Assembly: GCA_023228465.1 (NCBI GenBank)
Contig: JALOBC010000001.1
Span: forward strand, 124,001-188,000
Reading direction: 5' to 3'
Length of the DNA stretch: 64,000 nt
From: Dokdonella sp.
Lineage (GTDB): Bacteria > Pseudomonadota > Gammaproteobacteria > Xanthomonadales > Rhodanobacteraceae
Of this stretch, positions 748 through 7,201 are shown one piece after another (positions within the stretch are counted from its first letter, which is position 1; each line of letters opens with the position of its first letter). The notes below the pieces were generated by a model that saw nothing but the letters and a program-made list of their open reading frames with translations, ran no database searches and had not been told where the DNA came from. A program made the position numbers and the translations under genes.

Positions 748-1389
748 ATGAATCTCGTCAAATCCAAACAACGCGTTGCCGACCACGGCGAGGTGTTCAC
801 CCCGGCGTGGCTGGTCGAGGCGATGCTTGATCTGGTCAAGGATGAGAGCGAGCGCATCGATTCGCGCTTTCTGGAGCCGGCCTGTGGCAGCGGCAACTTT
901 CTCGTTGCGGTCCTGGCGCGCAAGCTTGCGGCGGTGGAACTCAAGTACGGCAAATCGGCTTTCGAGCGGCAGCATTACGCGCTGCTCGGGCTGATGTGCA
1001 TGTACGGCGTGGAGCTGCTCGCCGACAACATGGCGGAGTGCCGGGCTAACCTGCTGGAGATTCTTGCCGACTACCTTGATTTGAAGCCGGCGGACGATCT
1101 TTACAATGCCGCACGTCACGTACTGCGGCATAACCTCGTGCTGGGCGATGCGCTGACCATGAAGACCCACGACGGCGTGGCGATCACCTTCCCCGAATGG
1201 GGGTATCTTGGCAAGGGGCGTTACCAGCGGCGTGACTTCCGGATGGACGTGCTGACCGGTGCAGCCGCTTTCCGTGCCGAAGACTCGCTGTTCGCCAACG
1301 TGGACAAGGCGAGCCTGTTCCGGCCGGTGAAAAGCTACCCGGCCATGACCGTCCGCGAGCTCGCCGCGCTGGCTGAGGGGGAGCCATGA
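748..1389 (+). CDS. N6-adenine-methyltransferase-like protein lacking the NPPY motif
   Basis: Encodes 213 residues, first gene of a five-gene overlapping cluster. The N-terminal HGEVFTPAWLVEAM stretch and the LEPACGSGNFL motif (residues ~42-52) match motifs X and I of N6-adenine methyltransferases, which bind S-adenosylmethionine. The catalytic (D/N)PPY motif expected 100-170 residues later is absent, and the protein is less than half the usual length. It is annotated in relatives, as I recall, as a restriction enzyme M subunit. It may be a specificity or cofactor-binding partner of the full methylase at 3034-4626. The ATG at 748 is preferred over an in-frame TTG at 730. Its stop overlaps the next start by four bases. 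Confidence 0.75.
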   Translation: MNLVKSKQRVADHGEVFTPAWLVEAMLDLVKDESERIDSRFLEPACGSGNFLVAVLARKLAAVELKYGKSAFERQHYALLGLMCMYGVELLADNMAECRANLLEILADYLDLKPADDLYNAARHVLRHNLVLGDALTMKTHDGVAITFPEWGYLGKGRYQRRDFRMDVLTGAAAFRAEDSLFANVDKASLFRPVKSYPAMTVRELAALAEGEP

Positions 1390-4626: not shown

Positions 4627-7201
4627 GCCCACCATCAGCGAAATCCTTGCGCCCAAACCCACGGCGCAGCCACGCATCTATGCCTACGGCATCGACGACG
4701 CGGCACACAAGGGTTTCCTCAAAGTCGGCCAGACCACGCGTGACGTGAAGCGGCGCGTGGCCGAGCAGTTGCGCACGGCGGCCATCGAGAACTACCGCAT
4801 CGAACTGGACGAGCCTGCGGTGCGCGATGATGGCTCGCTGATCAGTGACTTCGAGGTGCGCGGCGCGCTCATCGCCAAGGGATTTGCCAATCCGCAGCTC
4901 GAATGGATGCGCTGCAGCGTGGCGGATGTGCAGACCGCGCTGGCCGAACTGCGCCGGGGGGAGCGCTTCACCGGCACGCACCATGAAGACTTTCCGATGC
5001 GCGCCGAGCAGGCCGAGGCGGTGAGCAAGGCCTACGACTACTTTGCATCCATCTGGCACGAGAATGCCAAGGCCTCGCCGCGGTTTCTTTGGAACGCCAA
5101 GATGCGCTTCGGCAAGACGTTTGCAGCCTACCAGCTTGCCAAGAGGATGAATGCCAAGCGCGTGCTGGTGGTGACGTTCAAGCCGGCGGTGGAAGATTCC
5201 TGGCAGCACGATCTCGAATCGCACGTGGATTTTGATGGCTGGCAATTCCTGTCACGGCATTCGAAAGGCAACTCGGACGATGTCCCACACGACACGCCAC
5301 TGGTGTACTTTGGCTCCTTCCAGGATCTGCTGGGCAGGGACCACACCACGGGCAACATCAAGGCCAGGAACGAGTGGATCCACACCATCAACTGGGACCT
5401 GGTGGTGTTCGACGAGTACCACTTTGGCGCCTGGCGCGAATCTGCCCGGGAGCTGTTCGCCGATGACGAAGAGCGCGTCGACCGCGAGGAACAACGCCTG
5501 AAGGTGACGTCCGCTGGTGCGGACGCCGAACGCGAGAAGCAGCGCATTGCCGATCAGCAGGAACCACTGGAAGACGAGAGGAACTTCCTGCCCATCACCA
5601 CGCGGGGCTACCTGTATTTGTCCGGCACGCCATTCCGTGCCCTGGCCACGGGTGAGTTCATCGAGGAACAGATCTTCAACTGGACCTACACCGACGAGCA
5701 GCGCGCCAAGGAAGCGTTTGCGCGCGAGCATCCGGGGCAGAAGAACCCGTATGCCGCGCTGCCGCAGATGCGCCTGTTGACCTATCAGATGCCCGATGAA
5801 CTGTTGGCCATTGCCAGCGGCGGCGAGTTCGACGAGTTCGACCTCAACGCCTTTTTCGAGGCCAGCGGTACGGGCGCCGATGCGCGCTTCAAGCACAAGG
5901 ACGACGTGCAGAAGTGGCTGGACATCATCCGTGGCGGCTACGCGGCGCAGTCGTTGCAGTACCTCAAAACCGGCACCAAGCCGCCGCTGCCGTACTCCGA
6001 CGTGCGCCTGCTGCCGTATTTGCAGCACTCGTTCTGGTTCCTGCCCAATGTGGCCGCCTGCCACGCCATGGCCAACCTGCTGGCCGAGCGCCACAACACC
6101 TTTTGGCGCGATTACGAGGTCGTCGTCGCCGCCGGCCCTGCCGCCGGCATCGGCCTCGCCGCGCTGCCGCCGGTGCGCCGCGCCATCGGCGGCGGCTTCG
6201 ACAGCAAGACCATCACGCTGTCCTGCGGCAAGCTGACCACGGGCGTCACCGTGCCGCAGTGGTCGGCCATCCTGATGCTGCGCAATCTGCAATCGCCCGA
6301 GACCTATTTCCAGGCGGCGTTCCGCGTGCAGTCGCCGTGGCTGATTCGCAACCCGGAGGGTGACGATCCGAACCGCGAGGAAATCCTCAAACCGGTTTGC
6401 TTCGTGTTCGACTTCGCGCCCACGCGTGCGCTGCGGCAACTCTCGGAGTACGGCATCAAACTGTCGCCGGGCGAGCCCAATCCGGAGAAGGCCGTCAAGG
6501 ACCTGGTGGCCTTTCTGCCCGTGTTGGCTTACGCGGACGGGCGCATGGTGCAGATCGACGCCGGCGGCATTCTGGATATCGCCATGGCCGGCACTTCGGC
6601 CACGCTTTTGGCGCGCAAGTGGGAAAGCGCGCTGCTGGTCAACGTGGACAACCGCACGCTGCAGCGGGTACTGGACAACCCGGACGCCATGGCGGCCGTG
6701 GAGCGCATCGAGGGCTGGCGCGCGCTGGGCGATCACGTGATCGAGACCATCATCAACCAGAGCGAGAAGATCAAGAAGCTCAAGGACAAGGCAAAGGACA
6801 AAGGCCTGACGGACAAGGAGAAAAAGCAGCTAAGCAAGGAAGAGAAGGAGTTCCGCTCCAAGCGCAAGCTGGTGCAGGAAAAGCTGATCAAGTTCGCCAC
6901 GCGCATTCCGGCGTTCATGTACCTGACCGATTTCCGAGAGAACACGCTGGAAGACGTCATCACGCGCCTGGAGCCGGGGCTTTTTCAGACCGTGACCGGC
7001 CTGACCGTGCAGGACTTCGACCTGCTGGTGCGCCTGCGCGTGTTCAACACCGAACTGATGAACTCAGCCGTGTTTGCCTTCCGCCGCTACGAGGATGCCT
7101 CGCTGCGCTACACCGGCATCGACAGCCATGAAGGCCTGCAAAGCTACGGGCTTTACAACACCGTCGTCGCCAAGGAAGAGCCGGCCGAATACGAGGTGTA
7201 G
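4619..7201 (+). CDS. GIY-YIG (T5orf172-like) nuclease fused to DEAD/DEAH helicase
   Basis: Encodes 860 residues and is the probable restriction subunit of the island. Residues ~18-110 look like a GIY-YIG/T5orf172 nuclease: RIYAYGI at 19-25, then FLKVGQT and downstream Arg/Glu residues. Residues ~130-600 form a superfamily 2 helicase: Walker A variant MRFGKT (162-167), DEYH box (265-268), SGTPFRA motif III (~334) and ETYFQAAFRVQSP motif VI (~561-573). A lysine-rich coiled region (~715-755) precedes the C-terminal domain. The architecture suggests ATP-driven translocation coupled to DNA cleavage. Its start lies eight bases inside the methylase gene. Confidence 0.85.
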   Translation: MNEPTISEILAPKPTAQPRIYAYGIDDAAHKGFLKVGQTTRDVKRRVAEQLRTAAIENYRIELDEPAVRDDGSLISDFEVRGALIAKGFANPQLEWMRCSVADVQTALAELRRGERFTGTHHEDFPMRAEQAEAVSKAYDYFASIWHENAKASPRFLWNAKMRFGKTFAAYQLAKRMNAKRVLVVTFKPAVEDSWQHDLESHVDFDGWQFLSRHSKGNSDDVPHDTPLVYFGSFQDLLGRDHTTGNIKARNEWIHTINWDLVVFDEYHFGAWRESARELFADDEERVDREEQRLKVTSAGADAEREKQRIADQQEPLEDERNFLPITTRGYLYLSGTPFRALATGEFIEEQIFNWTYTDEQRAKEAFAREHPGQKNPYAALPQMRLLTYQMPDELLAIASGGEFDEFDLNAFFEASGTGADARFKHKDDVQKWLDIIRGGYAAQSLQYLKTGTKPPLPYSDVRLLPYLQHSFWFLPNVAACHAMANLLAERHNTFWRDYEVVVAAGPAAGIGLAALPPVRRAIGGGFDSKTITLSCGKLTTGVTVPQWSAILMLRNLQSPETYFQAAFRVQSPWLIRNPEGDDPNREEILKPVCFVFDFAPTRALRQLSEYGIKLSPGEPNPEKAVKDLVAFLPVLAYADGRMVQIDAGGILDIAMAGTSATLLARKWESALLVNVDNRTLQRVLDNPDAMAAVERIEGWRALGDHVIETIINQSEKIKKLKDKAKDKGLTDKEKKQLSKEEKEFRSKRKLVQEKLIKFATRIPAFMYLTDFRENTLEDVITRLEPGLFQTVTGLTVQDFDLLVRLRVFNTELMNSAVFAFRRYEDASLRYTGIDSHEGLQSYGLYNTVVAKEEPAEYEV

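Follow-up and report, generated by a model that had tools for sequence, protein, structure and literature searches.

An ImmA-DUF4411 predicted toxin-antitoxin pair inside a DrdVI-type restriction-modification operon of Dokdonella sp.

Toxin-antitoxin (TA) modules inside type I restriction-modification (RM) operons are known, DarTG2 being an example, and they provide the background for a five-gene operon of Dokdonella sp. in which an RM system of DrdVI type encloses a predicted TA pair. The operon lies at 748-7201 on the + strand of the window, by which we mean the whole 64,000-nucleotide stretch analysed (assembly GCA_023228465.1, contig JALOBC010000001.1, positions 124,001 to 188,000). DarTG2 is reported to be a complete TA between hsdS and hsdR of a type I RM operon in the RRDM island of enteropathogenic Escherichia coli (EPEC). 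The window likewise places a complete predicted TA between modification/specificity and restriction genes, but DarTG2 belongs to other toxin and antitoxin families, its host is type I rather than split type IIG, and it has a dedicated regulator, RptR. A suicide RNase gene within an RM operon, predicted as such in the window, is also described for EcoprrI, a type IC system that contains PrrC. PrrC is reported to be restrained by the RM enzyme itself, whereas the window has a separate antitoxin-like gene, ImmA, and is for this reason not counted among the PrrC-type guards.

The two modules of the operon have each been described in other settings. Makarova 2009 lists predicted toxin-antitoxins that pair COG2856-Xre proteins with PIN or RelE toxins, and NetFlax 2023 describes ImmA as an antitoxin hub and mentions PIN-like partners. 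The RM module is represented by Deinococcus wulumuqiensis 479, whose genome announcement reports M1-2.DrdVI as a type IIG system with the recognition sequence GCAGCC and N6-methyladenine (6mA) modification, the methyltransferase (MTase) genes of which were cloned and expressed. The parts are therefore known. In the literature covered here, outside of which lies the Payne 2024 preprint on embedded defence, we found no account of ImmA-DUF4411 in RM operons and none of a DrdVI-type operon with an embedded TA module, and the priority of both observations is accordingly uncertain.

Two known modules in one operon

The preliminary description of this locus had reported five genes on one strand that overlap by 4, 4, 4 and 8 bases. 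The corresponding open reading frames (ORFs) are open and complete, and reading the junctions confirmed the overlaps, the first three being ATGA and the fourth ATGAATGA:

748..1389, + strand: M1, short methyltransferase-like protein of 213 amino acids (aa), N6_Mtase, orthologue of the first DrdVI gene
1386..2546, + strand: ImmA/IrrE (M78) metallopeptidase, predicted antitoxin, 386 aa, Peptidase_M78 with an N-terminal helix-turn-helix (HTH)-like part
2543..3037, + strand: DUF4411 PIN-like nuclease, predicted toxin, 164 aa, DUF4411 match
3034..4626, + strand: M2, Eco57I-family adenine methyltransferase, 530 aa, Eco57I with a variable middle region
4619..7201, + strand: R, T5orf172 (GIY-YIG-type) nuclease domain and ResIII-type helicase/translocase, 860 aa

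The gene families named earlier are recovered by Pfam: N6_Mtase in gene 1 (25 bits, cut-off 20.4, with MmeI_Mtase just below its cut-off), Peptidase_M78 in gene 2 (1.3e-18), DUF4411 in gene 3 (3.6e-50), Eco57I in gene 4 (3.4e-32) and ResIII in gene 5 (8.7e-6). At its N-terminus, gene 5 matches T5orf172 (22.5 bits, cut-off 20), which we take to be a GIY-YIG-type family; in four opened plasmid records, relatives of the gene bear the annotation GIY-YIG nuclease family protein. The overlaps represent tight packing, from which co-translation of the five genes, the single translational unit proposed earlier, is predicted.

Genes 1, 4 and 5 have the M1-M2-R order of DrdVI, with a short MTase-like M1, an Eco57I-type M2 and a GIY-YIG-type R with helicase, and they share 67% (M1), 54% (M2) and 73% (R) identity with the pDrdVI genes of D. 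wulumuqiensis 479. The PADLOC model REase_MTase_IIG (PDLC03626) hits gene 5 with model positions 179-676 and gene 4 with positions 1001-1358. Because the DrdVI trio corresponds to genes 1, 4 and 5 and one model spans genes 5 and 4, we rejected the possibility of two independent methylases with a new restriction subunit, and assign the three genes by homology to one DrdVI-type split type IIG RM system. DrdVI differs from the window in being without ImmA-DUF4411, the two genes that here interrupt M1-M2; in addition, the middle region of M2, which probably serves target recognition, is divergent in the window, GCAGCC being the recognition site of DrdVI. M1 has the motif I FLEPACGSGNF and no NPPY motif, and M2 has NPPY at residues 211-214. 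M2 also contains a DPxxKSG motif, which we take to be an unusual motif I, with K, S and G invariant in 11 aligned sequences. M2 carries DPxxKSG where M1 carries GSG, and a function missing from M2 may be contributed by M1; the two halves presumably complement each other.

Genes 2 and 3 form an adjacent M78 and DUF4411 pair, which is a predicted TA. In the window, the HExxH motif (222-226) and E248 of ImmA as well as D6, E48, D104 and E122 of DUF4411 are intact, and catalytic residues are intact in 80 of 80 ImmA sequences (a count that omits locus L096, where no intact ImmA frame was called) and in 66 of 68 PIN sequences of the related loci described below. In PDB entry 9vzy, an ImmA-like protein (3 chains) is found together with a DUF4411 protein (6 chains); the gene 2 product, P0002, matches 9vzy_A with E 1.2e-22 and the gene 3 product, P0003, matches 9vzy_D with E 2.5e-4. 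The common entry of these homologues supports binding between ImmA and DUF4411 only, and a literature text search for the code 9VZY found no paper on the structure. The pairs of COG2856-PIN, the NetFlax ImmA hub and 9vzy consist of the same two genes, ImmA first, as in the window. PIN follows ImmA in all 21 DUF4411 loci considered, namely the own locus, 10 from 397 other genomes of a phylum sample and 10 opened out of 35 matching plasmid records. DUF4411 matches occur in two of 50,697 phage records, both distant. By homology, the operon consists of an RM module (genes 1, 4 and 5) and an ImmA-DUF4411 module (genes 2-3), both of them known. The composite defence proposed earlier stands as a recurrent combination of RM with a predicted protease/PIN TA. 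Both methylase genes and the nuclease gene are, however, parts of a single known system, and the pair is an inlay missing from many related cores.

The operon was also compared with several other known systems. The best PADLOC match of P0002 is capP (7.1e-18, residues 181-300), but the PADLOC scan, which covered the five operon genes, gave no CBASS model for the other four. P0002 also matches RmrA of RosmerTA (PDLC03949, E 1.4e-15); its partner P0003 has no match to a PADLOC model at E <= 0.001, RmrT included, and membership in RosmerTA was dismissed on this ground. P0001 scores 26 against the MAD2 model of MADS, for which the NCBIfam cut-off is 720. Finally, a DarTG2-like type I arrangement does not apply to the window, where the flanks are DrdVI-type M1, M2 and R and only a possible HsdR stub lies upstream.

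Recurrence of the pair beside restriction-modification genes

Conservation of the combination was examined by a GTDB genome scan with an ImmA alignment. Of 580 confirmed matches, the best 80 were analysed, and the fractions given here hold for these nearest relatives only. To assign contexts, every ORF of these loci was searched with iterated profiles, and a locus was considered to be without RM gene if none was found in the 3 kb upstream or the 4.5 kb downstream of the pair; L110 was counted in this class, its HsdM-like ORF lying farther upstream, and L076 and L044, which are one contig, were counted once. ImmA was found in a DrdVI-type context in 11 loci, in a type I context in 36, directly after hsdR in two and without RM gene in 17, while in 14 the contig was too short. 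RM embedding thus applies to 47 of the 80 loci (66 with decidable context), and all 134 RM-gene hits lie on the same strand as ImmA.

The order M1-ImmA-PIN is present in 11 other loci from two phyla (L055, L057, L058, L059, L061, L062, L063, L065, L066, L076 and L112), and M2 is the next gene in all 10 whose contig extends there. These loci derive from Nitrospira, Burkholderiales, Comamonas, Aquabacterium, Rubrivivax, Halioglobus, Chromatiales and one proteobacterium. All five genes are seen in L058, L061, L063, L065, L066 (where the contig end cuts R) and L112. In L055, L057 and L059 the contig stops in or after M2, and that of L062 already stops inside PIN; L076 is a decayed copy with a frameshift in ImmA and a truncated M2. 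Independent occurrence of the pair, with the five genes rarely adjacent, had been named as the sign of a chance assembly. The pair does occur alone, in 17 of the 80 loci and in nine of ten plasmid loci, but the order recurs in 11 loci; by its conservation, the pair in its RM setting is a recurrent arrangement and not a chance assembly.

Of the 36 type I loci, 27 have M and/or S on the upstream side and R on the downstream side; six show RM genes on the upstream side only and three on the downstream side only. Pfam gave a similar picture for the neighbours of the nearer loci, with Methylase_S in 12 and N6_Mtase in 10 of 34 upstream neighbours and HSDR_N in nine and Eco57I in eight of 31 downstream neighbours; for the farther loci the values were 7/42 for Methylase_S and 12/41 for HSDR_N. 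The same pair as in the window is found in type I operons of an Acetobacter vaccinii plasmid (L034) and of Acidovorax temperans (L056), which are among its nearest relatives (ImmA 70-71%, PIN 66% identity), with 4-base overlaps at hsdS|ImmA and ImmA|PIN; the host is hsdMS-hsdR, where an Abi gene separates PIN from hsdR, whereas the host in the window is of DrdVI type. Among the ten opened plasmid loci, the closest relative (ImmA 70%, PIN 66%) is a type I operon with the order HTH-HsdM-HsdS-ImmA-DUF4411-Abi-HsdR.

Start-stop overlaps are frequent in RM contexts and absent from the stand-alone loci measured. ImmA overlaps its upstream gene by 4 bases in 6/11 DrdVI-type, 21/34 type I, 0/16 no-RM and 1/13 undecided loci, which amounts to 27/45 RM loci versus 0/16 stand-alone loci. 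For the downstream gene, the corresponding values are 8/10, 11/29, 0/14 and 1/7. Stand-alone pairs have an upstream gap, the median distance from the preceding ORF being 258 bases (16 no-RM loci measured), in contrast to the pair in the window. In 61 core rows, which contain duplicates of the same loci and two partial-hit artefacts (L151 and L152), M1 and M2 overlap at their junction in 53, and by exactly 4 bases in 26. The interval from M1 to M2 is 1644 bases in the window and 1635 bases in L057, L059, L063 and L112, with ATGA overlaps on both sides in all five, and this places the pair exactly at the M1|M2 start-stop junction. The interval is 1634 bases in L076 and 1691-2285 bases in the other five loci that show M2.

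The history of the pair was addressed with a quick ImmA tree of 88 rows without bootstrap, from which L076 (frameshifted) and L096 (no intact frame) were left out. The 11 DrdVI-embedded rows, window included, form one clade (Shimodaira-Hasegawa-like approximate likelihood ratio test, SH-aLRT, 86; not starred). This clade belongs to a starred set of 17, which adds five type I rows and one no-RM row and is itself nested in larger ImmA sets rich in type I rows. The nesting suggests that the pair moved from type I operons into DrdVI-type operons, a direction that is suggested rather than proven by the tree. In the 11 pair-bearing loci (10 for M2; L066, a near copy of L065, was left out), the distances of M1, ImmA, PIN and the N-terminus of M2 correlate with rho 0.66-0.89, and 0-22 of 2000 permutations were as high; for M1 versus PIN, rho is 0.76 (4/2000 permutations). 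The end branches of the window are long in the ImmA, M1 and R trees.

A possible second defence layer and its rivals

We consider it an even call that the pair is an autonomous TA cassette embedded in a DrdVI-type RM operon, where it acts as a co-expressed second layer of defence. According to this proposal, M1 and M2 would methylate the host site, and R, with its GIY-YIG-type nuclease and helicase motor, would cut unmodified DNA. The autonomous cassette would sit at the M1/M2 start-stop junction, and the PIN nuclease would be kept inactive in a complex with ImmA. Since the pair lacks a separate upstream gap here and would be read together with the RM genes, it would be made whenever the RM system is made. 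Most likely, it would function as an abortive or dormancy-inducing second layer: if restriction fails and ImmA is reduced or altered by the infection, the PIN nuclease would be freed and would cleave RNA, probably tRNA by analogy to VapC, and growth would stop. Gene content, catalytic residues, gene order, recurrence, the start-stop overlaps in RM contexts and the tree position are observed; toxicity, neutralisation, co-expression, trigger, RNA target and a defence benefit of the pair are predictions of the model. The second-layer reading is supported by reported precedents. In addition to DarTG2, these include TgvAB, which lies inside a type I operon; an HsdR cleavage mutant retained protection, and TgvAB alone gave 10- to 100-fold less protection than the whole cluster against several phages. 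BREX loci carry backup nucleases, and PIN-GNAT-EVE proteins were reported near type I RM operons.

A number of observations weigh against a fixed role of the pair in RM operons. RM genes are dispensable for it, as seen in the 17 no-RM loci, and in nine of the ten opened plasmid loci no RM gene is annotated beside the pair. Its position is not fixed either, because hsdS lies downstream of it in L070, L098 and L106 and the pair follows hsdR in L071 and L116. ImmA is found without detected PIN in six type I loci (L073, L074, L075, L079, L091 and L108) and, outside the type I class, in L072, L095 and L121; the contig of L074 stops 340 bases past ImmA, and a Fic gene is next in L079. Conversely, DrdVI-type cores without the pair are frequent: gene 4 was matched in nine of 369 genomes of the class sample, one of which has a contig that begins inside M2, and the pair is present in two (own, G207) and absent in six of the eight with a visible M1|M2 junction. 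It was found in none of eight split-core plasmid loci, and 42 viral contigs with M1 gave no ImmA or PIN match in the fetched stretch. An R tree, from which own-genome loci, duplicates and rows of 60% or less or 450 aa or less were excluded, rejects a single clade of pair-bearing operons (7 versus 23 rows, approximately unbiased test, p-AU 0.0004). The M1 tree (12 versus 27 rows, with own-genome loci, duplicates and rows under 55% identity excluded) gave p-AU 0.08, and zero bootstrap trees had one pair-bearing clade. One origin of the whole five-gene operon is hence not claimed: a single entry is compatible with the ImmA tree, but one clade of pair-bearing operons is not compatible with the R tree. 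The R tree indicates that losses, gains or gene exchange have occurred and that the cassette is not permanently coupled to the core.

These data are also compatible with selfish addiction or hitchhiking, in which the pair adds no defence layer but, through post-segregational killing, keeps the RM cassette or itself stable, the junctions being tolerated landing sites. We regard this as a serious rival, although a distinctly less probable one. Besides the R-tree pattern of gain and loss, it is favoured by stand-alone copies of the pair on conjugative and other plasmids and by unrelated genes at junctions of sister operons: KilA-N at M1|M2 (L148, 8755-9591), and, at M2|R, a PF01850 PIN gene that precedes R (L058, 13791-14237), HicB (L170, 7068-7502) and FRG (L007/L050), together with an extra HigB/HTH gene before ImmA in L061 (8115-8714). 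Such other TA and accessory genes fit a passive capture equally well. Yet, the usual M/S-to-R position and the 4-base overlaps over many phyla are more specific than random landing would predict. That the operon consists of two unrelated, abutting modules without further meaning is very improbable; each module does exist without the other, but the same order in 11 further loci, the single ImmA clade and the M1-PIN correlation speak against it.

The pair could also be a direct guard in the manner of PrrC, such that the RM proteins or the methylation state control it and RM inhibition by a phage or loss of modification activates ImmA or frees the PIN nuclease; a trigger by loss of modification had been suggested in the preliminary description. 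The embedding in both RM classes with start-stop overlaps would fit, and so would the PrrC precedent, in which a toxin encoded inside ecoprrI is reported to be switched on when T4 Stp inhibits the enzyme. The six type I operons that retain ImmA without detected toxin, with a 4-base overlap of ImmA and hsdR in L073 and L075, point in the same direction. Nevertheless, this reading appears unlikely. The pair brings its own antitoxin, unlike the loci discussed in Makarova 2012, which describes immunity-locus toxins without typical antitoxins that immunity proteins may restrain. It also exists in many genomes without nearby RM genes, its hosts are two unrelated RM classes for which a specific contact would need to be re-made, no contact is indicated by sequence, and none of the results connects the pair's activity with methylation. 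A broader version, in which ImmA monitors whether the modification/restriction complex is intact, in both type I and split IIG systems, and frees PIN when a phage blocks it, is similarly doubtful. It would explain the M/S-R position, the overlaps in RM loci and the retention of ImmA without toxin in type I operons and, if true, would mean that ImmA-DUF4411 was domesticated by RM operons as a general guard. ImmA without PIN is as expected if loss of the toxin is harmless but loss of the antitoxin is not, or if ImmA has a role in RM.

In contrast to the loci described in Makarova 2012, a complete predicted TA is found here inside two unrelated RM classes, mostly at the same position and in many phyla. 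DrdVI-type operons with and without the pair, and type I operons with and without PIN, provide natural paired comparisons that bear on whether embedded TAs are layered defences, guards or selfish hitchhikers.

Genomic setting and related operons

The operon has a G+C content of 0.615, compared to 0.684 (standard deviation 0.023) in downstream 1650-base windows, and gene 1 had no match at E <= 1e-10 in 60 relatives (15 of the same genus), the own genome aside. On these grounds, the cassette was probably acquired horizontally. Gene 1 was matched in two of 398 phylum-sample genomes, the own genome and one other, and the own genome has one M78 match. The flanking genes (window 1-600 and 7324-11036), the downstream one presumably phosphoglycerate-mutase-like, are on separate contigs in all 12 same-genus draft genomes that hold both. 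The operon may thus sit at a synteny break, and since the flanks are split over contigs in all 12 assemblies, no empty site is demonstrable and an exact insertion site is not proposed.

One further feature lies directly upstream of the operon:

603..737, + strand: ORF of 44 aa, residues 1-27 of which resemble a type I HsdR start (two weak hits)

Both hits of this ORF are HsdR starts (E 0.1 and 0.9), and a Pfam scan gave no match. It is perhaps a recombination scar of an earlier type I operon at the landing site of the cassette.

Among the Chlorobiaceae, ImmA overlaps hsdR by 4 bases in L073 and L075 with no PIN between them; in L074, it has a 4-base overlap with an ORF cut at the contig end, again with no PIN between. 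The antitoxin-like gene thus outlasts the toxin in a type I operon. An EVE-like identity for a gene at the M2|R junction of L167 was dropped, as Pfam gave no family. DrdVI-type M1, mostly together with M2 and R, is present on 42 viral contigs from IMG/VR (L136-L177), and these systems may be phage-borne or prophage-borne. In the Bacillota plasmids of Paenisporosarcina (L020) and Pediococcus (L021), R and M2 are fused into one protein of ~1,400 aa, and the fused gene is preceded by an M1-like gene in L020 and by a gene of no assigned family in L021.

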